From a virus, in the IMG/VR virus record IMGVR_UViG_3300030060_000992, positions 1-23,419 of that record: a stretch of 23,419 bases of DNA. One strand, written 5' to 3'. The notes under the pieces were generated by a model that made no database searches, was not told the origin of the DNA, and worked only from the letters and a program-made list of their open reading frames with translations. The position numbers and the translations under genes were made by a program. Shown here one piece after another: positions 1 to 11,155 of this stretch. Position 1 is the first letter of the stretch. The number at the start of each line of letters is the position of its first letter.

Positions 1-1730
1 ATTTAGTTTTAGATGACGATACCGGCACTACAGACGATACCGGCACTACAGACGATACCACTTCTACTGAAACCGTTGATCTTAGCGACATAACTGACGC
101 GGATACTGTTACAGACACTTCTGGCACTGACTTAACTACAGACGATTCAGCCGTTTCTGCAATTGACCCAAACATTCGTGGTATAGCAGGGGCAGATCTA
201 TCTAAGTTATACGAGGGTGTAACTCTAAACGACGATGGTTCTTATACATGGCGGGGGATAAACATGTCTCCCGAAGTTATGGCGCGAACGATTGCTAATA
301 GCGATCCTAGCATGTTCCCCGAAAAGCCAGACCGCTTAGACACTATAGAGTCCAACCTCACAGGTAACTTATCTGCTGTAGAAACTAACTTATTAGAACA
401 AATAGCAGCTAATGAAAAAGCTGGCTTAGGCCGCGACGAAGCACTCGCTAAAGCAATAGAAACGGTATCTGATAACTTAGGAATTACAGAGACTAACTTA
501 AAAGAAGCTATATCTGACTCAGAATCGGCACTATCAACAGAAATAAGTAATTTAGCTACAGATATTGCTACAGACCTTGGCAATGTAGAAGCAAACCTAC
601 TAGAAGAAATAGCCAATAACGAAGAAGCTGGGCTAGACCGCGATCAAGCTCTAGCTGAAGCAATAGAAACGGTATCTGATAATTTAGGTATCACAGAAGA
701 TAATCTTCTAGACGCTATATCCGATTCAGAATCGGCATTGTCAGACGAAATTGATGACCTAGCTACAGACGTTGCTACAGATCTTGGCAATGTAGAGAAG
801 AATATACTTGAAGAAGTAGCAGCCAATGAAGAGGCTGGGTTAGACCGTGACAAGGCGCTTGCTGAAGCAATAGAGACTGTATCTGATAATTTAGGTATTA
901 CAGAAGACAACCTAACCAAGATTATAGAGGCGGGCGATACTGCACTTTCTGATGAGATAGCTGATGTAGGCACTGCTGTAGACGACCTTGCTGGTGAATT
1001 AGGTGTAACAAAAGACGAGCTTCTTGGCACTATAGGGCAAACGGAAGAAGACCTACTTGCAGCATTAGGCGAGACAGAAACAGCATTAGGCGGCGAGATT
1101 GACACCATAGCCGCAGTGCTAGGTAAACCCGCTCAAGACGTAACGTCTGCTGACGTTGACTTTGTTACTGATCTTATTGCACAACAAGAAGCACTAGCTG
1201 ATCCGTCTACATTTGCGTTTACTGAGGCGCAGCTAGGCTATGATGTAACAGGTGATGGGGTTGTAGATGTTACAGACCTTAATTTACTGCAAGACGTACT
1301 AGCTGGCGACCAAACACTAGACCCACTTACAGATAACCGCTTTGCCGCAACAGGTGTGTTCGCTTCGCAGTTACAGCAACAACAAGAACTGCAACAGCAG
1401 CTACAACAGCAACAACAGCAGCAGATGCAGCAACAAATGCAAATGGAGCAGCAAGCCAAACAACGTGCAAAGGAGTCGTCCGCAAGAGATTTTTTAAGTA
1501 TGCTCTTAGCTTCTGAAGAGGGTAGAGTAGATGTAGGGCAGTCGCCCCTTGCGCAGTTAGAGCCAGCCTATGACTTTGGTAGTATTTTTGGTACGCCTCA
1601 GAACACTGCAAGTAGTCCTTATGGGGGCTATGCTAGTTCTAACCCGTTTGGACAGCCTCCAAGACGTATAGCACAAGGTGGTATCATAGAAAGCAATGAA
1701 GAATTGTTGCGACTACTTGGGAAAGGTTAA
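1..1730 (+). CDS. Fibre-like virion protein with coiled-coil repeats and EF-hand/dockerin loop (5' truncated)
   Basis: The reading frame is open to the left window edge (first complete codon at base 3), so the ATG at 264 is internal and the gene starts outside. Visible parts in order: a Thr/Asp-rich stretch with DDTGTT repeats; three tandem 69-residue helical repeats (bases 387-1007) each with the core IETVSDNLGITE, followed by degenerate continuation; a calcium-loop-like motif DVTGDGVVDVTD (bases 1242-1277) as in dockerin/EF-hand loops; a Gln-rich tract (about 1371-1463); and a C-terminus with IAQGGI. The combination of helical repeats, one EF-hand loop, then an LDP...TG...poly-Q helix is one I associate with marine podophage virion proteins. 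An elongated, trimeric or tail-associated role is inference. It overlaps the next gene by one base (TAATG), indicating translational coupling. No enzymatic motif is seen. Confidence 0.8.
   Translation, partial: LVLDDDTGTTDDTGTTDDTTSTETVDLSDITDADTVTDTSGTDLTTDDSAVSAIDPNIRGIAGADLSKLYEGVTLNDDGSYTWRGINMSPEVMARTIANSDPSMFPEKPDRLDTIESNLTGNLSAVETNLLEQIAANEKAGLGRDEALAKAIETVSDNLGITETNLKEAISDSESALSTEISNLATDIATDLGNVEANLLEEIANNEEAGLDRDQALAEAIETVSDNLGITEDNLLDAISDSESALSDEIDDLATDVATDLGNVEKNILEEVAANEEAGLDRDKALAEAIETVSDNLGITEDNLTKIIEAGDTALSDEIADVGTAVDDLAGELGVTKDELLGTIGQTEEDLLAALGETETALGGEIDTIAAVLGKPAQDVTSADVDFVTDLIAQQEALADPSTFAFTEAQLGYDVTGDGVVDVTDLNLLQDVLAGDQTLDPLTDNRFAATGVFASQLQQQQELQQQLQQQQQQQMQQQMQMEQQAKQRAKESSARDFLSMLLASEEGRVDVGQSPLAQLEPAYDFGSIFGTPQNTASSPYGGYASSNPFGQPPRRIAQGGIIESNEELLRLLGKG
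15..59 (+). repeat. 18-bp tandem repeat (2.5 copies) encoding DDTGTT
   Basis: GACGATACCGGCACTACA occurs at 15-32 and 33-50 without mismatch, followed by a half copy at 51-59. The copies are in frame with the fibre-like CDS and encode a DDTGTT repeat. Perfect identity suggests recent slippage or expansion. More copies may lie left of the window edge. Confidence 0.85.
387..1007 (+). repeat. Three tandem 207-bp (69-residue) coding repeats
   Basis: Copies at about 387-593, 594-800 and 801-1007. The landmark CAATAGA starts at 454, 661 and 868, giving exact 207-base spacing. The encoded core AIETVSDNLGITE is identical in all three, while the DNA differs mostly at third codon positions. The repeats have therefore diverged at the DNA level under protein-level selection. 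The third copy decays in its last third, and weaker, shorter echoes (GELGVTKDELL, LGETETALGGEI) follow. Confidence 0.9.
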
Positions 1731-2434: not shown

Positions 2435-3405
2435 GTATATTAAGGTATCAAAACGGCGGTGATGTCACTCAAGACCCGCTAGTAGGTCAGCAAACAGGGT
2501 ATCAAGGTGCGCTAGCGGAGTTTGCTGGCGACTACGTAACTGATTTTCTAGGTAAAGGTCGTGCTCTAGCTGACCAAGGTTACCAAGCCTACACAGGGCC
2601 GCTTACTGCAGGGCAATCTCAACTGCAAGACACCGCTTTTGCAGGTCTGGGTAATCTTGTTGTACCCACCACTGAGCAGATGTCTTTTACTCCCGGAACC
2701 TTTAGTGCTATGGAAGCACCTACTGCCACTGCTGATGCGCCCGCCGCAGGAGGCACTAACGTCAACCAGTATATGAACCCCTATCTGTCAGCGGTATTAC
2801 AGCCACAGCTAGCAGAAGCTCGTAGACAGTCAGAGATTAGCCGATTAGCTGATGAGGGCAGGCTGACTCAGGCAGGTGCTTTTGGTGGGTCTCGTCAGGC
2901 CGTTATGGATCTAGAACGTGAAAACATATTAAACAGAAATCTAGCGGAACTGACAGGTCAAGGCTACGCACAAGCCTTTCAACAAGGCAGAGATCAGTTC
3001 AACTTAGAGCAGCAACGACAGCAAACAGCCACCGATGCGGCTAGACGGTTTGGGCTTGAGTCATTAGCGGCGCAGGCGGGTGCGGGGCGTACGCAAAGAG
3101 ATATAGAACAAGCGGGTATATTGGCGGACAGAGAACAATTTGAAGAGGAAAGAGACTTCCCATACAAGCAACTGCAATACCAGCGTTCACTGCTGCAAGG
3201 ACTACCAATCGCTGCAAGGTCTTACTCTGTAACGCAGCCTAGCGGTCTTAGCGCACTATTAGGCAGCACAGGTGATGTGTCTTCGTTAATTAGCTCGTTA
3301 TTTGGCTTAGGTGGTACGGAGAAAAAAGACGATTCTGGTAGCGGTATGACCGCAGAAGAAATAGCTGATTTTATAGCTAAGAGAGACGCGGGAGGGGCTG
3401 CATAA
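2431..3405 (+). CDS. Virion structural/DNA-ejection-type protein (MNPY...GAFGGSRQ family)
   Basis: The 324-residue protein has the family signature MNPYLSAVLQPQLAEARRQ (residues 115-133), a helical stretch, AGAFGGSRQAV (residues 148-158) and a Gln-rich helix (QQGRDQFNLEQQRQQ, 184-198). I associate this pattern with conserved structural proteins just upstream of giant ejection proteins in marine podophages. It resembles internal virion or DNA-transfer proteins in composition (long amphipathic helices, Gln/Ala-rich). The extreme N-terminus has YQNGG, and residues 21-25 TGYQG, which is shared with the upstream protein. Its start overlaps the upstream stop by four bases (ATGA), and its stop shares a base with the next start. 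Exact role, whether core, nozzle or ejected protein, cannot be decided from the sequence. Confidence 0.78.
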   Translation: MSILRYQNGGDVTQDPLVGQQTGYQGALAEFAGDYVTDFLGKGRALADQGYQAYTGPLTAGQSQLQDTAFAGLGNLVVPTTEQMSFTPGTFSAMEAPTATADAPAAGGTNVNQYMNPYLSAVLQPQLAEARRQSEISRLADEGRLTQAGAFGGSRQAVMDLERENILNRNLAELTGQGYAQAFQQGRDQFNLEQQRQQTATDAARRFGLESLAAQAGAGRTQRDIEQAGILADREQFEEERDFPYKQLQYQRSLLQGLPIAARSYSVTQPSGLSALLGSTGDVSSLISSLFGLGGTEKKDDSGSGMTAEEIADFIAKRDAGGAA

Positions 3406-5255
3406 TGATAGCTAATTCCTCACAAGGCATAGTGGAGATGATACAGCGTAAAAAAGACGCATATCAGGACAATCCACAAGCATTACAACAGCGGTATCAA
3501 CAGAACAAACAGCTTACTGACTTGCTAGCACTGCAGCAGCTAAAGACAGAAAAAGAAGCCGCGGCACGCGACATACAGCTAAAAATGCAACAGAACCCCC
3601 AGACCATTGCACAGCAACGTGAGCAAGAAGTCTTAGGCCTTATCAAACAAGAGCAAGGGCGTAATCTAGGCGAAGTTACTCAACAGGTAGGTGGCGTTCT
3701 AGGGCAGCGTCAAAAAGAAGCCATGCAACGGCGACAACGCATGGGTATGGCCCAAGGCGGCATCGTTGGGTTTCAGTCTGGCGAGATAGTAGACGGAGAA
3801 AAAGCAGAAACAATAAGTGTTGCGGATGCTATAGCGGAGTTAGGCGAGGAAGCCTTTAACTACATAAAGGAAAATCCAGCAGAAGCCGCGCTACAGCTTG
3901 GGCTTATAGTCGTTCCCGGCGGGCTTGCCGTAAGAGGCGGATTAGCTGCATTAAAGGCGGCAGGAGTAACATCTAAGCTAAAGAACCTAATGCGGGGCAA
4001 GAAGCCTGACTTTGAAATCACTCCTAAAGGCACCGCAGTACCCACAGATAGGTCTGGGATAATTTCTAAGTCTAAAGAACTTATGCCGTCTGGCCCTATA
4101 GAAGCTGGTAAACAGCTAGTGCCTTATGGAAGAGGGGCGTCGATGACTCGCCCGACAGCAGCTTTGACTGCTGCAGGTGCGCTTGGGTTAGGTAGCTTAA
4201 CTGGTGACGAAAAAGTTGCTGACGACGAAGGAAAGAAAGATCCCGGCCCTTATGGGCCTCCGTTACCACCAGTTAAACCCAACATTCCCGGTGTTGACAC
4301 TATTGATAAAGATGCGCTGTTTGACGAGCTTGAAGTCGAAACACCAACACTAGACATTGGCACTACTAGGCAAGACGCTGCGAAGGGCATTTTAACTGAC
4401 ATAGGCTTAGATACACGAGCCGGTAGAGATCCAGATGCAGTGCGAAAAGCTAGAATGGCTGACGTTAAAGAAGAGATGGGTCTTGCAGGAATACAGACTA
4501 AGAAGCAAAGCCAGATAGATAGGCTACGCACACAACAAGAACAACTTGCAGAACGCGATCCGTTTGAGGCATTTATAGCTGGCACAGTGGGCGCTGCTCA
4601 ACGTGGTGGGCCGGGAGGTTTTGCTGCGGGATATATGGGTAAGTTGTCTCAACAACGCGCACAGCAGCGACAAAACCTTAAAGACGAGTTTGGTATAGAG
4701 AACGAGCTTTTAGATCTTGAGCAAACTGTGTTGAGTAAAGGCATCGACAGTGCAGATAAAGCAGTGCAAGTGCTATCAACAGAAAAACAAGCATACGCAA
4801 ACATCATGTCTAAGGCTTCTGAAGGTGATATTTCTGATGCTCAAGAACAGGCGAATCGCGTGCTCGATGCAGATGTACAGAACATTAAGACGAAGCTAGA
4901 TTTGTTAGGACAAGAAACTGACCGTGCAATAGCGTCTGCTGAACTGCGCGGAGCCGCATTAGAAGACATGCAAGAACTACTACAGAAAGAAGTAGAACGT
5001 CGTGATGAACTACTTTCACCTGTAATAACTGCATTAGTAAACGATGCTCAATCAGGGTACGGCGATGTAGAAAGCGCAGTGAACAGAGCGGGCATAACTA
5101 AAGGCTTTATCTTGCAAGCCAGCGGTATATTTGAAAGAGAAGAGGATTTGTTACGGCGCATAGAAGCATTAGGAGGAGATGTTTCTTCTCAGAGATCCGC
5201 CTTAGCTGAACAGCGAAAGCGAGTTGAGCTTATGGGTCAGTATCTACAGCAGTAA
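3405..5255 (+). CDS. Internal-virion-like protein with hydrophobic segments
   Basis: The 616-residue protein starts with a Gln/Lys-rich helical region (residues 10-115), then MAQGGIVGF (115-123), a hydrophobic Gly/Ala-rich segment (about 160-187, AALQLGLIVVPGGLAV), a second one (about 251-267, TAALTAAGALGLGSL), a Pro-rich linker (about 275-300) and a long predicted coiled-coil C-terminal half (about 340-616). Large helical proteins with short membrane-active segments placed before a giant ejection protein fit an internal core or injected protein in a podophage; this is inference from layout and composition, not a recognised domain. It is coupled on both sides by TAATG junctions. No catalytic motif was seen. 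Confidence 0.72.
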   Translation: MIANSSQGIVEMIQRKKDAYQDNPQALQQRYQQNKQLTDLLALQQLKTEKEAAARDIQLKMQQNPQTIAQQREQEVLGLIKQEQGRNLGEVTQQVGGVLGQRQKEAMQRRQRMGMAQGGIVGFQSGEIVDGEKAETISVADAIAELGEEAFNYIKENPAEAALQLGLIVVPGGLAVRGGLAALKAAGVTSKLKNLMRGKKPDFEITPKGTAVPTDRSGIISKSKELMPSGPIEAGKQLVPYGRGASMTRPTAALTAAGALGLGSLTGDEKVADDEGKKDPGPYGPPLPPVKPNIPGVDTIDKDALFDELEVETPTLDIGTTRQDAAKGILTDIGLDTRAGRDPDAVRKARMADVKEEMGLAGIQTKKQSQIDRLRTQQEQLAERDPFEAFIAGTVGAAQRGGPGGFAAGYMGKLSQQRAQQRQNLKDEFGIENELLDLEQTVLSKGIDSADKAVQVLSTEKQAYANIMSKASEGDISDAQEQANRVLDADVQNIKTKLDLLGQETDRAIASAELRGAALEDMQELLQKEVERRDELLSPVITALVNDAQSGYGDVESAVNRAGITKGFILQASGIFEREEDLLRRIEALGGDVSSQRSALAEQRKRVELMGQYLQQ

Positions 5256-8200
5256 TGCAAACTCATTCTTTAGAGCAAGTACAAACGGCGATTAGAAACG
5301 CCCAAGCTGCGGGGGACGCTGGAGCAGTAGCAGCCCTCAAAGACTACGAAGAAGACATAAAAAGAGACATAGCAATGCTACGTGCTCTTGCTCCACGTAA
5401 AGAAGCTGGTGTAGTAGAGAACATTACTTCTGGAATCGGCGCGGGTATTGTTGATGTAGGCGAACTTGCATTACTAGGTGGTGCAGCCGCACTAGAAGAA
5501 GACGCTGAACTTGTTGCTCGCGAAAAAATTAAAGCGGGCGCTGCGTCTTTACGTCCAGAAGGCGGTGATCCCGATTCTATTAGCTACCAAATAAGTCAAG
5601 CACTTGGTTCTATTACAGGACTTGCTGCCGTACCTGCAGCCGCTGCAGTTGCTGGTGCCTCCGGAACCGCTGCTATAGGCCTCGGTGCGCTAGCTGCTGC
5701 CGGTGCCGGTGCTGGTGAGGCGAGTGAGCGAGCACGGTCTGCTGATGCTACTGAAGAAGAGCGAGCCACTGCTACCATGCGAGGCGCAGGAATCGGTTTA
5801 CTTGACATACTGCCAATCGCAAGGGTGGTTAAGTTTGTTGATCTACCCGCTCTCAACAAGATATTAGATAAAATACCGCCCGAAAAAGTAGAGACTATAG
5901 GCGAGCGTATACGTAGCGCGGGAGTAACGGGCGGTGCAGAAGCCGCACAGGAAGCAGCGTCTAACGTACTACAAAACTTAAACGCTAGAGAGTATGACGC
6001 TCTAGCAGAAGCGTTCGACATAACCACCGCTCAAGAAGCGGCACTGGGCGGTTCCGCAGGGGCTATTTTACAAGGGCTTGTAGACCTATTTACTTCACGT
6101 AAACGCGGTAAAACTGTTGCTGAAGTAGCAGAAGAACAAGCAGATAACCCTGAAATTGCAGGGTTATTAGAGTTCAAGCCAGAAAGACCGACACAGCTAG
6201 AGTTATTTGATCGTGGTGATATTGAAGGGCCACGAGGAGATTCAACAGCACAAGCTGAAAGAGACAGGCTGTTTGAAGAAGAACCTAGCAGAGCCGTATC
6301 GCCAGACCAAGAATCGTTGCCGGGGTTAGAGCCAAAACGAGTAGGCCCACAACTGCAGGGGTTGCCTGCACCAGAAGGCGAAACAGTAGCGGGTGAAACA
6401 CTAGCTGTTACACCAGAAGGTCAGGCACTTACTAGAGAAGAAGTATTAGCTCGTATTAACCAGAGGGATAAAGAACAGCAACTTACTGAGCAGCCTGTAT
6501 CTGATGAAGCTCGAACAGGTAGAGAACGCGCTGAGATTGCTAAGCGAGAGCAAGGTGATCTGTTTCCAACTGAATTAGCAGTAGCAGAACAAGAAGCACA
6601 ACGTCGTGCAGAGGAGCCTACCCCTACGCCTAAAGCTGTTACTGAAGAAGCCTTGACTACCGCTGGGTTTGCGCCTAACGCCGCAATACGAAAACGTATT
6701 GTAGGTAAGGATCTGAACGCTCTAGAAGTACAAACAGATCTCACAGAAACAGCAAACAAACTCAAGTCTAAAAAAATTAAACGAGGAGTTACTCGTCTTT
6801 TAGCGGAGGTGCCAAGTGAGCAACGTGATCTATCTTTCCCAACTCGACGTGCTAGACAAGGAACTGACGAAGCAGGAAGTAGAGTCGGCGTTCCAAGTGA
6901 TTTACAGCGTGTGGAGGACGACCAACCACGTAGAAGTACCGAAGCACCTGCGGCATCTGTCAGAGAAGAGCTGGGAGTTTTTGATAGCGGCGTTGGGCAA
7001 GTTACTGGACGAGAAGGAACACAACGCAGTGCACTAATGCGCAGAGCGATGGCTAAAGCTAGAGGCGAGCGAGCAGCCACGAAGAGAAAGGCACCTGTCG
7101 TCAGAGAACCAGAAGCGGAAGAATTTACGTTAGCAGATGCGGATGTAGACACGCAGGCGGCTGAGCTTAACGCTAGGGTTGAGCAGTTACAGAGTGAGCA
7201 AGAAGCTGCGGCACCTGAGTCGAAAAGTGTAGTGGGGGCTAGAGTAGCCCCGCCGCAGGAGCTACGAGATCTAGCCGCTCAACTACGAGAAGAGAACCCA
7301 AATCTCAGTCTTGCAAGAGCAAACGACTTAGCTAGGCAGGAATTAGAGGGCGCTCCAGAAGTTCGTGTGCAAGCGGGTGACAGAGACAAGTACCTAATGC
7401 ACGTCAAGGACATGGAAGTTGATCCAAGACTTGCTGCACGGATGATAGAGACTTCGCGAACCGCCCCAATGTTCGGCTCTACCAACGCAGCCGAAGCTAT
7501 TGATATGCCCCTACAGGATTCGGTGATTGCCAAGATAAACGCGGGGGACACTCGCGGTGCCTTGGAAGCACTGGCAAAGACAGTCAAAGACAGACGACTT
7601 GCAAGGGTTGCTAGGAAGTTAATGAAGTATGTCGGTTCGACTGCAACAGATGTCGTAAACATACAACCCCTGCAGGCTACCAGCACCGTGCGTGACGCTA
7701 ACAATATACGCAGTATGCTGGACGCTAAAGATAAGTATGGGCAGAACCCGTTAGGTCTTTTTGTACCTAAAGAGAACAGAATCCTGCTCAACACAGACGG
7801 TGGCCTAAACGGGACAGTTTTCTTACATGAGATGACTCATGCGGCTACTTTATATGAGATAGCTACAAAACCAAAAAGCAGCACAGTTGTAGAGCTTGAC
7901 CGTATATACCAAGCCGCAAAAGAAGTGCTGGGTGATAACTTCTACGGCACAAAAGACCTAAAAGAGTTTGTAGCTGAGGCTTTCGCCAACCCTAGATTTC
8001 AACGTGACCTTGCTCGTATCAATGCAAAGGGCGAGCCGCTAAGTTTATTTCAAAGGTTCAAGGGGGCTATTGCTCGGTTTCTTGGGTTCGATAATTACAG
8101 TGTTTTTGGTGACACGTCAGCGCAAGCCGAAGTTAATCGTCTAGTAGATAAGATATTAGCTACTGCACCAGAACGTGCGGGTCTAGACAACATACCGTCG

Positions 8201-11155
8201 CTATCCACCAAAGATGGCGTGCAGTTCGTAGCAGACAAAATAAACTCCGTTAAGTCAGGCCTAACTAGCAAACAATCACGCGAGAAAATAAAGCGTGATT
8301 TTTTTGGGCTGTTCAGCAAAGACATGAACCCACGTATGCGAAAACTCATGCGTGGCACGCTGGGCGTTCTTCCTAATCAAGCGGTCTTTCTTGATATAGC
8401 AGAGAAAACTGGGATTACGGGAGCAACTGAACTTAACAACGCAATTCTGGAGCAGCGGGGGGCGTTAACTAAAGCTGAAGAGAATGTAAAGCGGACTCTA
8501 GAGCCTATAGTGAGTTGGGCATCGAAAGCGCCAAAGAAGACCATAGATGCTTTTAACAACCTTGTGCACGACAGCACCATAGATGAGGTAGACCCACAGC
8601 TCACGTTAAAACAAGCTACTGACAAGTATGGTCGGCAGACTGTAGAGGGCACAAACCAACTAAAAATAGATCGCTATAAAGAACTTCGTAAGATATACGA
8701 CAGTGCCGATTTAGGTAGAGGCGGTAGACAGGCATACACTAAATTACGTGGCCTGTACGCTGACATCTATGCAGAATTAAGAGGGTCGCTGCTGGGCCGC
8801 ATAGATGGCCTCAACGTAGACGAAGGAGTTAAGACCAGCTTAAAAAATGATTTGTTTGCCAGAATGCTTGAAGCGGCAAAGATAGAGCCATACTTCCCTC
8901 TCACACGTAAAGGTAAATACTGGTTGGTGGTGCAGAACCCTGCAGATGGTGAGCGTGCGGTGGTTACCTATGAGAGCTTAGGTGATCGTGACTTTGCCAG
9001 AGGCGAGTTTGAAAATATGGGGTACGGCGTTGAGACCATAGACCCCGACAACATGAGGAAATATGTAGGCCCAGACGCTCCTTCTGGGTCTTTTGTGGCA
9101 CAAGTTCTGAACACGCTAAATGACGCTAAGATACCGCAGTCCACGCGAGAACAGATTGCTAGGCTATATATTGAAGCACTGCCCGAGGCGTCTTTTACTA
9201 AGTCGCTTCTAAAACGTAAGAAAACACTTGGCTATGATATAGATGCAGTAGGAGCGGCAAGAACTAAGGCATATGACTTAGCCAGACAGTCCGCAAGAAT
9301 ACGTAGTAGTAATAAGATAGAGGCTGTGAGAACGGCCATGCGAGAGGAGTTCTACGCAAGGGAGCTTGATTCTGAAGGTAAGCCAACCAGAGAGTTTGTC
9401 CGTTCAGACCTACAAAACGACAGGGACAAGGGCATACTTGAAGAAATGGAAGATCGCGCTGATTTTGCCATAAGCCCCCCTGCGGATAACTACGCTAAAG
9501 CTGCGAACAGAGGAGCTTTCTTTTTTACAATCGGGTTCAACGCTTCCTCCGCACTGGTTAACTTGTCACAGGTGCCTCTATTTGCCTACCCAATGCTGGC
9601 GGGTCAGTATGGCTACGGTAAAAGTAAAGACGCAATACTAGGCGCACAGAAGCTGTTTATGAGCAGCTACGTGCCTCATGCTAAAGAGAAGTTTGTTAAC
9701 GACCCAGAAGAAGGCGCTAAGTTCAGCGACAAGTACACAACGCCATCGCTTGATAACTACTATGTGCGGACTGCAACAGAAGATGGTGGGTCTACATTTT
9801 CAATTCGCACAGACCTAGACATTCCCAATGACAAGAGAAGGCAGTTAGAGCGCATACGTCCACTTATAGAACTAGCAGCCGATAGAGGTGAACTAAACAC
9901 GTCATTTTTAGCTGAGACATTAAGTGTAGATCAGTCGGGCCGTGAGACGGGTTTTTGGGACAAGGTTACTAATTTGTCCGCTGTTATGTTCCACAACGCA
10001 GAAATAATGAACCGCCAAACCACAATGGTGGCGGCTTACGAGCTTGAACTAAGTAAGCTAGCAAAAGGACGTGAACCTACCCTAAAGCAGAAGCAAGCTG
10101 CGGCAGAAGAAGCCCTTTACCAAACTCAACAAATCAACGGCGGTGCCACATTAGAAACTGGCCCTCGCCTTGCTCGTAAAGGGTTAGGGCGTGTTGCGTT
10201 GATGTACAAGAGCTATGGTATTCAGATGTATTACACCATGCTCAAAACAGCTAAGGAAATGTCCGACGCAGCTTTTGCAGGAGACACAGCAGCGGCGAAA
10301 ACAGCGTTTAAGCAACTGGCTGGCATACACCTATCAGCACTGTTGTTTGCTGGTGTGCAAGGGCTACCGCTGTACGGTGCGGTGTCTATGATCTACGACA
10401 TGTTCCAAGAAGACTATGAAGAAGACGCCGATACAGCGTTACGTAGTTATTTAGATAACGACATACTATACAAAGGCCTGTTATCTGAGGTGACTGGGTT
10501 AGACGTGTCGCAGCGTGTCAAGTTGACCGACCTACTATTTGAGGCCGACAGGTTTAACAGTGATCCGTCGCCAGAGGAAAGTTTCTTGCATCTCTTTGGT
10601 GGCCCCGCTTGGAGTGTAGGGTCAAGATTTTATGAGGGTGCGCAAGAAGTTATAGAAGGCGAAAATATGGAACGCGGTGCAGAGTCCATGATGCCGGGTG
10701 CTCTGCGTAACTTGTATAAAGCTGTTATTAGATACCCGAGAGACGAGGGCATTCTTACTCGCCGTGGCGACCCTATATACGATGACTTAACTTTTGGCGA
10801 CATAACCACGCAGATATTGGGTTTTCCTCCTGTTAAATACACAAGGCAGATAGAGGAAGCGTCCGCAGCCAAAGGCATGGAAGCCGCTGCGCGGGATAAA
10901 CGCGCCAAACTACTCAAGCGGTACTACATAGCTAGACGATTCGGCGATTACGAAGAAGCTAGGAGAATGCGCCGTGCTATGAACGAGTTTAACCGCACGA
11001 ATGTTGTCACTAGGCGCGACCCTTCTTTACGTATAACAAGTGACACCATTGACAGATCCATGCGGCGGCACGAAACCACCAGTGCAAAGATGGTCAACGG
11101 CATCTTGTTATCGCCCTACATGAGCCGCGAAGTAAAAGAGACTGGGTATTTATAA
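5255..11155 (+). CDS. Giant polyvalent/ejection protein with HEMTH zincin-like motif
   Basis: At 1966 residues this is by far the largest gene. Residues 5-35 form an Ala-rich helix. Residues 115-155 are a strongly hydrophobic Ala/Gly-rich segment followed by GEASERAR, typical of ejected phage proteins that insert in membranes. Residues about 300-720 are charged, low-complexity linker. HEMTH (858-862) followed by EFVAEAF (904-910) looks like a gluzincin-type zinc metallopeptidase of the kind found in large polyvalent phage proteins. The C-terminal 900 residues include a FNASSALVNLSQVP block and a YKSYGIQMYYTML block, which I associate with large polyvalent protein-associated domains (LPD38-like; assignment tentative). 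Inferred role: packaged in the virion and ejected with DNA, possibly cleaving a host or virion protein. It contains an out-of-frame ORF at 6816-7037. It is the last gene of the + operon. Confidence 0.82.
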   Translation: MQTHSLEQVQTAIRNAQAAGDAGAVAALKDYEEDIKRDIAMLRALAPRKEAGVVENITSGIGAGIVDVGELALLGGAAALEEDAELVAREKIKAGAASLRPEGGDPDSISYQISQALGSITGLAAVPAAAAVAGASGTAAIGLGALAAAGAGAGEASERARSADATEEERATATMRGAGIGLLDILPIARVVKFVDLPALNKILDKIPPEKVETIGERIRSAGVTGGAEAAQEAASNVLQNLNAREYDALAEAFDITTAQEAALGGSAGAILQGLVDLFTSRKRGKTVAEVAEEQADNPEIAGLLEFKPERPTQLELFDRGDIEGPRGDSTAQAERDRLFEEEPSRAVSPDQESLPGLEPKRVGPQLQGLPAPEGETVAGETLAVTPEGQALTREEVLARINQRDKEQQLTEQPVSDEARTGRERAEIAKREQGDLFPTELAVAEQEAQRRAEEPTPTPKAVTEEALTTAGFAPNAAIRKRIVGKDLNALEVQTDLTETANKLKSKKIKRGVTRLLAEVPSEQRDLSFPTRRARQGTDEAGSRVGVPSDLQRVEDDQPRRSTEAPAASVREELGVFDSGVGQVTGREGTQRSALMRRAMAKARGERAATKRKAPVVREPEAEEFTLADADVDTQAAELNARVEQLQSEQEAAAPESKSVVGARVAPPQELRDLAAQLREENPNLSLARANDLARQELEGAPEVRVQAGDRDKYLMHVKDMEVDPRLAARMIETSRTAPMFGSTNAAEAIDMPLQDSVIAKINAGDTRGALEALAKTVKDRRLARVARKLMKYVGSTATDVVNIQPLQATSTVRDANNIRSMLDAKDKYGQNPLGLFVPKENRILLNTDGGLNGTVFLHEMTHAATLYEIATKPKSSTVVELDRIYQAAKEVLGDNFYGTKDLKEFVAEAFANPRFQRDLARINAKGEPLSLFQRFKGAIARFLGFDNYSVFGDTSAQAEVNRLVDKILATAPERAGLDNIPSLSTKDGVQFVADKINSVKSGLTSKQSREKIKRDFFGLFSKDMNPRMRKLMRGTLGVLPNQAVFLDIAEKTGITGATELNNAILEQRGALTKAEENVKRTLEPIVSWASKAPKKTIDAFNNLVHDSTIDEVDPQLTLKQATDKYGRQTVEGTNQLKIDRYKELRKIYDSADLGRGGRQAYTKLRGLYADIYAELRGSLLGRIDGLNVDEGVKTSLKNDLFARMLEAAKIEPYFPLTRKGKYWLVVQNPADGERAVVTYESLGDRDFARGEFENMGYGVETIDPDNMRKYVGPDAPSGSFVAQVLNTLNDAKIPQSTREQIARLYIEALPEASFTKSLLKRKKTLGYDIDAVGAARTKAYDLARQSARIRSSNKIEAVRTAMREEFYARELDSEGKPTREFVRSDLQNDRDKGILEEMEDRADFAISPPADNYAKAANRGAFFFTIGFNASSALVNLSQVPLFAYPMLAGQYGYGKSKDAILGAQKLFMSSYVPHAKEKFVNDPEEGAKFSDKYTTPSLDNYYVRTATEDGGSTFSIRTDLDIPNDKRRQLERIRPLIELAADRGELNTSFLAETLSVDQSGRETGFWDKVTNLSAVMFHNAEIMNRQTTMVAAYELELSKLAKGREPTLKQKQAAAEEALYQTQQINGGATLETGPRLARKGLGRVALMYKSYGIQMYYTMLKTAKEMSDAAFAGDTAAAKTAFKQLAGIHLSALLFAGVQGLPLYGAVSMIYDMFQEDYEEDADTALRSYLDNDILYKGLLSEVTGLDVSQRVKLTDLLFEADRFNSDPSPEESFLHLFGGPAWSVGSRFYEGAQEVIEGENMERGAESMMPGALRNLYKAVIRYPRDEGILTRRGDPIYDDLTFGDITTQILGFPPVKYTRQIEEASAAKGMEAAARDKRAKLLKRYYIARRFGDYEEARRMRRAMNEFNRTNVVTRRDPSLRITSDTIDRSMRRHETTSAKMVNGILLSPYMSREVKETGYL
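6805..6818 (+). promoter_or_regulatory. Strong internal Shine-Dalgarno and GTG start inside the giant gene
   Basis: GGAGGT at 6805-6810 lies five bases before GTG at 6816-6818, in a frame different from the surrounding CDS. None of the annotated starts of the + operon that I checked has an equally strong ribosome-binding site, because those genes rely on stop/start overlaps. An in-frame TAG at 6801-6803 closes the embedded frame just upstream, so 6816 is its natural start. Confidence 0.6.
6816..7037 (+). CDS. Putative overprinted 73-aa gene embedded in the giant protein gene
   Basis: The ORF lies entirely within the 1966-codon gene in another forward frame. It begins with GTG behind a GGAGGT site and ends with TAA, which overlaps an ATG of the host frame (TAATG at 7035-7039). 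The product looks globular: mixed hydrophobic and charged, with three Trp/Tyr-containing helices (VIYSVWRTTNHVEVPKHL, SWEFLIAALGKLLDEKEH), unlike the Arg/Gly/Glu-rich disordered-looking host translation of the same bases (host residues about 521-595). It reminds me loosely of small phage proteins with a ...KHLRHLSEKSW... pattern, but I cannot name a family. Against it: one short ORF in a long gene can occur by chance. For it: strong ribosome-binding site, stop/start overlap, and protein-like composition. Confidence 0.5.
   Translation: MSNVIYLSQLDVLDKELTKQEVESAFQVIYSVWRTTNHVEVPKHLRHLSEKSWEFLIAALGKLLDEKEHNAVH
7035..7039 (+). other. TAATG junction: possible internal restart of the giant protein
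   Basis: The stop of the embedded ORF (TAA, 7035-7037) shares its last base with ATG 7037-7039, which is in frame with the giant CDS. This TAATG form is the same coupling used between four of the five virion genes here (1730, 3405, 5255). If used, it would give a 1372-residue C-terminal isoform (residues 595-1966) that keeps the zincin-like and C-terminal regions but lacks the hydrophobic N-terminus. This is inference from sequence only. Confidence 0.4.

Follow-up and report, generated by a model that had tools for sequence, protein, structure and literature searches.

A short open reading frame (ORF) preceded by a strong ribosome-binding site and lying inside the gene of a giant phage protein raises the question of whether the same bases encode a second protein and, if they do, what this protein may do for the phage. 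The DNA analysed here, hereafter the window, is the whole 23,419-nt stretch of the IMG/VR record IMGVR_UViG_3300030060_000992 (record size, 43,357 bases), and all positions are given in window numbering. A previous sequence-only reading had pointed to a 73-codon ORF in another forward frame with a GGAGGT five bases before a GTG start, and its coordinates proved exact: the nested, or overprinted, gene occupies positions 6816-7037 of the + strand, in the +1 frame of the gene at 5255-11155, and runs from a GTG codon (6816-6818) to a TAA stop (7035-7037), encoding 73 aa. The Shine-Dalgarno (SD) site GGAGGT (6805-6810, + strand) stands 5 nt from the GTG and displays a duplex energy of -10.8 kcal/mol, compared with -2.2 for the giant's own start. 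It had been called the strongest ribosome site of the + strand operon, and strong it is, but it shares the first place with that of the gene at 3405 (-10.8 kcal/mol). In addition, an in-frame TAG (6801-6803, + strand) ends 12 nt before the GTG, which argues against a product read through from upstream. No sigma-70-like promoter was found in 5200-7300, inside the giant gene just upstream of the nested gene, and transcription as part of the late operon is therefore assumed.

The carrier gene (5255-11155, + strand) encodes a giant PLxRFG/tail-700 (DarB-like, LPD39) polyvalent protein of 1,966 aa, with matches to NCBIfam NF032893 (tail-700/PLxRFG; E=2.4e-100, 337 bits against a cut-off of 100), to PHROG 10089 (DarB-like antirestriction; E=6e-43) and to Pfam LPD39 (E=2e-8). 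Since the first of these exceeds its cut-off, the Tail-700/PLxRFG C-terminal module is present. The carrier is the final gene of a late-type run on the + strand that corresponds to the structural operon. Polyvalent proteins of this kind, which occur in phages and conjugative elements, are believed to enter the virion and to be injected from it (PMC5512222). Based on this family membership and on the late-gene context, the carrier is probably packaged and injected with the DNA, and the label of giant ejection protein given to it earlier is corrected to this polyvalent identity, with ejection itself no more than probable. A HEMTH sequence, an HExxH zinc-metallopeptidase-like motif, is found at residue 858 of the giant (7826-7840), and metallopeptidase domains have been reported in polyvalent proteins. 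Elsewhere in this phage, the large terminase is nearest to those of the Pelagibacter phages HTVC027P and HTVC023P, phage 023Pt_psg01 and phage DSL-LC04 (about 46% identity), and a GroES co-chaperonin is encoded both here and in relatives of the terminase-matched group. The first protein of the window (3-1730, + strand) contains imperfect repeats of ~60 residues (..DRDQALAEAIETVSDNLGITEDNL..) as well as a segment rich in Gln around 1374-1386, and its C-terminal part weakly matches a PHROG head-tail adaptor.

Over the overlap, the host frame displays 14.9% Arg vs 8.0% and 10.8% Gly vs 7.5%, and is also richer in Ser. The linker had been described as rich in Arg, Gly and Glu, which stands for the first two residues, but the excess of Glu is only slight. 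The shift towards GGA for glycine that had been reported is evident, as this codon accounts for 5/8 of the host-frame Gly codons in the overlap vs 19/147 in the whole gene. The linker of the giant over the nested gene is Arg/Gly/Ser/Thr/Asp-rich and probably disordered. Upon synonymous shuffling of the host frame, the nested stretch was kept open in 0-13% of the trials per sequence, and for most sequences an equally long +1 ORF appeared somewhere in the giant gene in roughly 10-70% of the shuffles; the length of the ORF in a single sequence was not significant and was dropped as evidence. Since length alone is unremarkable and conservation across relatives goes beyond chance, it is the comparison that decides the matter. 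A 243-codon antisense ORF (6421-7152, - strand) also overlaps the nested gene, and antisense ORFs in the same area of relatives vary widely, reaching 526 codons in locus L054 and 964 codons in the giant of locus L147; judging by these variable lengths, it looks like an effect of composition.

Relatives were sought by scanning with the 73-aa protein, by scanning with the giant and by tblastn of the small protein on the loci bearing a giant, and the set was later enlarged by scans with alignments of the small protein and with the C-terminus of the giant. The 73-aa protein alone retrieved one near-identical contig, while the giant retrieved many relatives, and tblastn on these loci uncovered full-length nested homologues of 35-47% identity at the homologous place of giants that are themselves about 50% identical. 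In total, 61 distinct nested sequences were obtained from IMG/VR contigs of uncultivated phages, the window's included, with the very diverged copies of L188 and L187 among them, and all (61/61) are embedded in a homologue of the giant, in its +1 frame. An ATG, GTG or TTG start preceded by an SD-like site is present in nearly all, in sequence surroundings that vary by clade; under simple scoring, the start is weak or unclear in a few, e.g. L177, L082 and L085. Across 59 aligned members (numbering of the L007 protein), P39, L42, L45, W50 and L60 are invariant and L14, E20, A22, L57 and H70 nearly so, and conservation persists down to about 23-40% amino-acid identity. One very broad alignment proved too diverse to serve in pattern scans.

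Diversity was compared by codon position. In the whole-gene alignment of 27 giants, host third-position diversity falls to 0.248 in the overlap vs 0.622 elsewhere, and none of the 1,683 other blocks of 72 codons, which overlap one another, goes below the minimum of 0.534. Host positions 1 and 2, on the other hand, retain the gene average over the same codons (0.447 and 0.393 vs 0.461 and 0.388). Counted in the nested frame, codon positions 1, 2 and 3 have diversities of 0.373, 0.202 and 0.448, the normal order for coding sequence. Likewise, in another set of 15 giants, of which nearly all represent distant clades and one (L060) also belongs to the first set, third-position diversity drops to 0.25-0.33 exactly over the nested gene vs a mean of 0.616. 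Moreover, in 99.7% of 741 pairs the nested proteins are more alike than the host-frame translations of the shared bases (mean identity, 0.585 vs 0.370). A dip at position 3 with positions 1 and 2 unchanged is the signature of protein coding in a second frame. That the ORF arose by chance in low-complexity sequence, or that the bases encode no protein but act as a signal in RNA or DNA, has a practically negligible probability: length is indeed not significant in one sequence, but the constraint is three-base periodic in the nested frame, is replicated in the two sets of giants and is accompanied by amino-acid conservation among highly diverged members, and a non-coding signal would have lowered diversity at host positions 1 and 2 as well.

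It is also very improbable that the nested frame is entered by programmed frameshifting out of the giant frame, which would yield a truncated giant with an alternative tail. A few relatives (L016, L022 and L046) keep the nested frame open for longer before the start, but a stop codon shortly precedes the start in the window and in most relatives; this stop, the kept SD-like site and the start contexts that differ between clades all argue against it. We therefore consider, with a probability of roughly 0.93, that 6816-7037 is a genuine, independently translated protein-coding gene wholly inside the giant gene, and the comparative evidence supports selection on the nested amino-acid sequence together with maintenance of its SD-bearing start site. 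Dual coding in the linker, as had been proposed, is thus borne out by the constraint being confined to the overlapped codons, and frame breaks at neutral rates or a lack of dual-frame constraint, which would have spoken against it, were looked for and the opposite was found.

The proposal that this would be a new or relocated gene, in contrast, is unlikely, given its age within the giant family and the failure to find a stand-alone source. In fact, no stand-alone homologue was found in INPHARED by tblastn with seven different queries (best E about 0.6), in a collection of bacterial and archaeal genomes, or in eight related isolate records, this last search having had no positive control, and no copy outside the giant was found elsewhere on any of the loci examined. 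These negative results are bounded by the sensitivity of tblastn and of peptide patterns for a 70-residue protein, which highly diverged copies would escape.

Giants devoid of the nested gene do exist: those of L004, L006 and L009 can be aligned across the linker in the host frame, but their +1 frame there holds many stops. The tree built from giant C-termini (34 with and 12 without the gene) requires at least five gain or loss changes, on a topology with no outgroup and some long branches, and with a sampling biased by the use of the small protein as query in several scans. As even the most divergent members carry the gene, the simplest reading is that it arose early and was lost repeatedly, or that the linker was exchanged, the direction of change being presumed on this unrooted tree. 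One recent loss is directly visible. In L124, a close relative of the window's giant, the +1 frame reads KAYQPDNVLYLLALKKSQ, matching AYRPDNVIYLPQAKEN of L119, and then breaks, while the host frame of the giant (3297-9692) is open and the linker after the relict has been replaced by an Asp-Thr repeat; by its sequence, this is a natural knockout of the nested gene. The giant of L020 (1426-7860) lacks the nested gene and has a C-terminus almost the same as that of L084, which carries it, and the pair suggests either recent loss or exchange of the N-terminal half of the giant. To judge from the complete giants without it and from the L124 relict, the nested gene is dispensable to some lineages.

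The product is predicted to be soluble, with no membrane segment and with a pI mostly of 4.1-5.0 across members (5.9 for the window copy). The maximum 19-residue Kyte-Doolittle hydropathy is below 1.4 in all 34 members tested and 0.29 in the window. AlphaFold predicts, with moderate confidence (pLDDT 73-76, pTM about 0.55), models of two to three helices, with an amphipathic helix and a long second helix connected by a Pro-containing segment, and a Foldseek search returned no fold match for them. No known family was found in Pfam, PHROGs, NCBIfam, PADLOC or PDB sequences, where only weak and inconsistent matches appeared; DUF2922, detected in some close rows (E=2e-4), was rejected upon fading in distant rows.

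Nested genes of lysis proteins offered two precedents. In lambda-type Rz/Rz1, the o-spanin gene lies within the i-spanin gene in another frame, and Rz1 is a secreted lysis lipoprotein; gene E of the tiny ssDNA phage PhiX174, within gene D, encodes a lysis protein of the membrane. The present case resembles the former in being a small gene inside a larger one, in another forward frame, in a large dsDNA phage and with its own start site, and the latter in that the overprinted gene is nested in full and has an initiation site of its own. However, direct reading of the sequence revealed no lipobox, signal peptide or N-terminal hydrophobic stretch, and the carrier is not a spanin; an identity with Rz1 is excluded, as there is no lipoprotein signal with a lipobox and a Pro-rich mature part. 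In contrast to PhiX174 E, the product is predicted to be soluble and the phage is a large dsDNA one, and an amurin of the E type is excluded by the missing transmembrane segment in the 34 members tested.

With regard to mechanism, we infer that the nested gene would be translated by independent internal initiation at its own start on the late structural mRNA. The second base of a codon largely sets hydropathy, and with a +1 offset this base of every nested codon coincides with the wobble base of a giant codon. Hence the hydropathy of the small protein is specified mainly at sites where changes are almost silent for the giant, and a probably disordered linker can in this way carry a folded protein cheaply. 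The gene has been inherited, always nested, while the giant family diversified.

The role that we favour for the product, tentatively, is that of a cytoplasmic cognate helper of the giant, acting in its solubility, folding or loading into the virion. In phage P1, loss of DarA or of Hdf, a 203-residue protein, keeps other Dar proteins out of the head (PMC12810830). The nested product would work like Hdf does for the Dar proteins, or like an acidic secretion chaperone; the giant family counts DarB among its named relatives, but the parallel with Hdf is a functional analogy only and no homology is claimed. In agreement with such a helper, the nested gene was never found apart from a giant, and its product has no membrane segment, a mostly acidic pI and a helical model. 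On the other hand, some lineages lack the gene, so it is not essential for every giant, no fold or family match informs its function, and the confidence of the models is moderate.

Two other roles come close as near rivals. The gene may be real and its product directed at the host cell or its defences, for instance as a small acidic inhibitor or nucleic-acid mimic made late or co-ejected, with nesting serving co-expression, which is quite possible, if short of an even chance. Many phage factors for host takeover and antirestriction are small acidic proteins, and the repeated loss and divergence are in line with an accessory gene driven by conflict, but no PADLOC, PHROG, Pfam or NCBIfam family is matched, the operon is a late one and the window copy is only mildly acidic (pI 5.9). 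Alternatively, the product could belong to the virion or tail machine as a minor structural part whose synthesis is matched to that of the giant, as its place within the structural operon, its conserved helices and a conserved C-terminal His might suggest; no virion protein resembles it in sequence or fold, and we hold this to be rather unlikely. Returning to the helper, the fuller proposition that an old, obligately nested family is the dedicated partner of the giant ejected protein, with its hydropathy largely in the wobble positions of the latter, is put forward with somewhat more reserve than the helper role itself.

Overprinted genes are usually regarded as young, local and typical of tiny genomes. 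As a kind they are well known and have been reviewed (PMC8227390), and the carrier belongs to the polyvalent proteins (PLxRFG/tail-700, LPD39), for which no nested gene was found described in PMC5512222, a text that does not contain the word 'overlapping'. No description of the nested family was found in the literature searched, nor in Pfam, PHROGs, NCBIfam or PADLOC. What is new is the protein family, its age, its strict nesting in a gene of large dsDNA phages and its possible link to a polyvalent ejected protein. A real and old phage protein family has been missed by genome annotation and by the family libraries searched, and it is kept across a broad set of tailed phages, in records of up to about 60 kb. 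The dips of period three in synonymous diversity that expose it can reveal such genes in metagenomic alignments without expression data. It also offers a case for studying how long two frames stay jointly maintained and, as in L124, how such genes vanish. Furthermore, it suggests that giant polyvalent proteins, already of interest in anti-defence, have an unrecognised small companion, and, if the partner reading is true, the two would constitute, in large dsDNA phages, a deeply conserved interacting pair whose genes share their bases.
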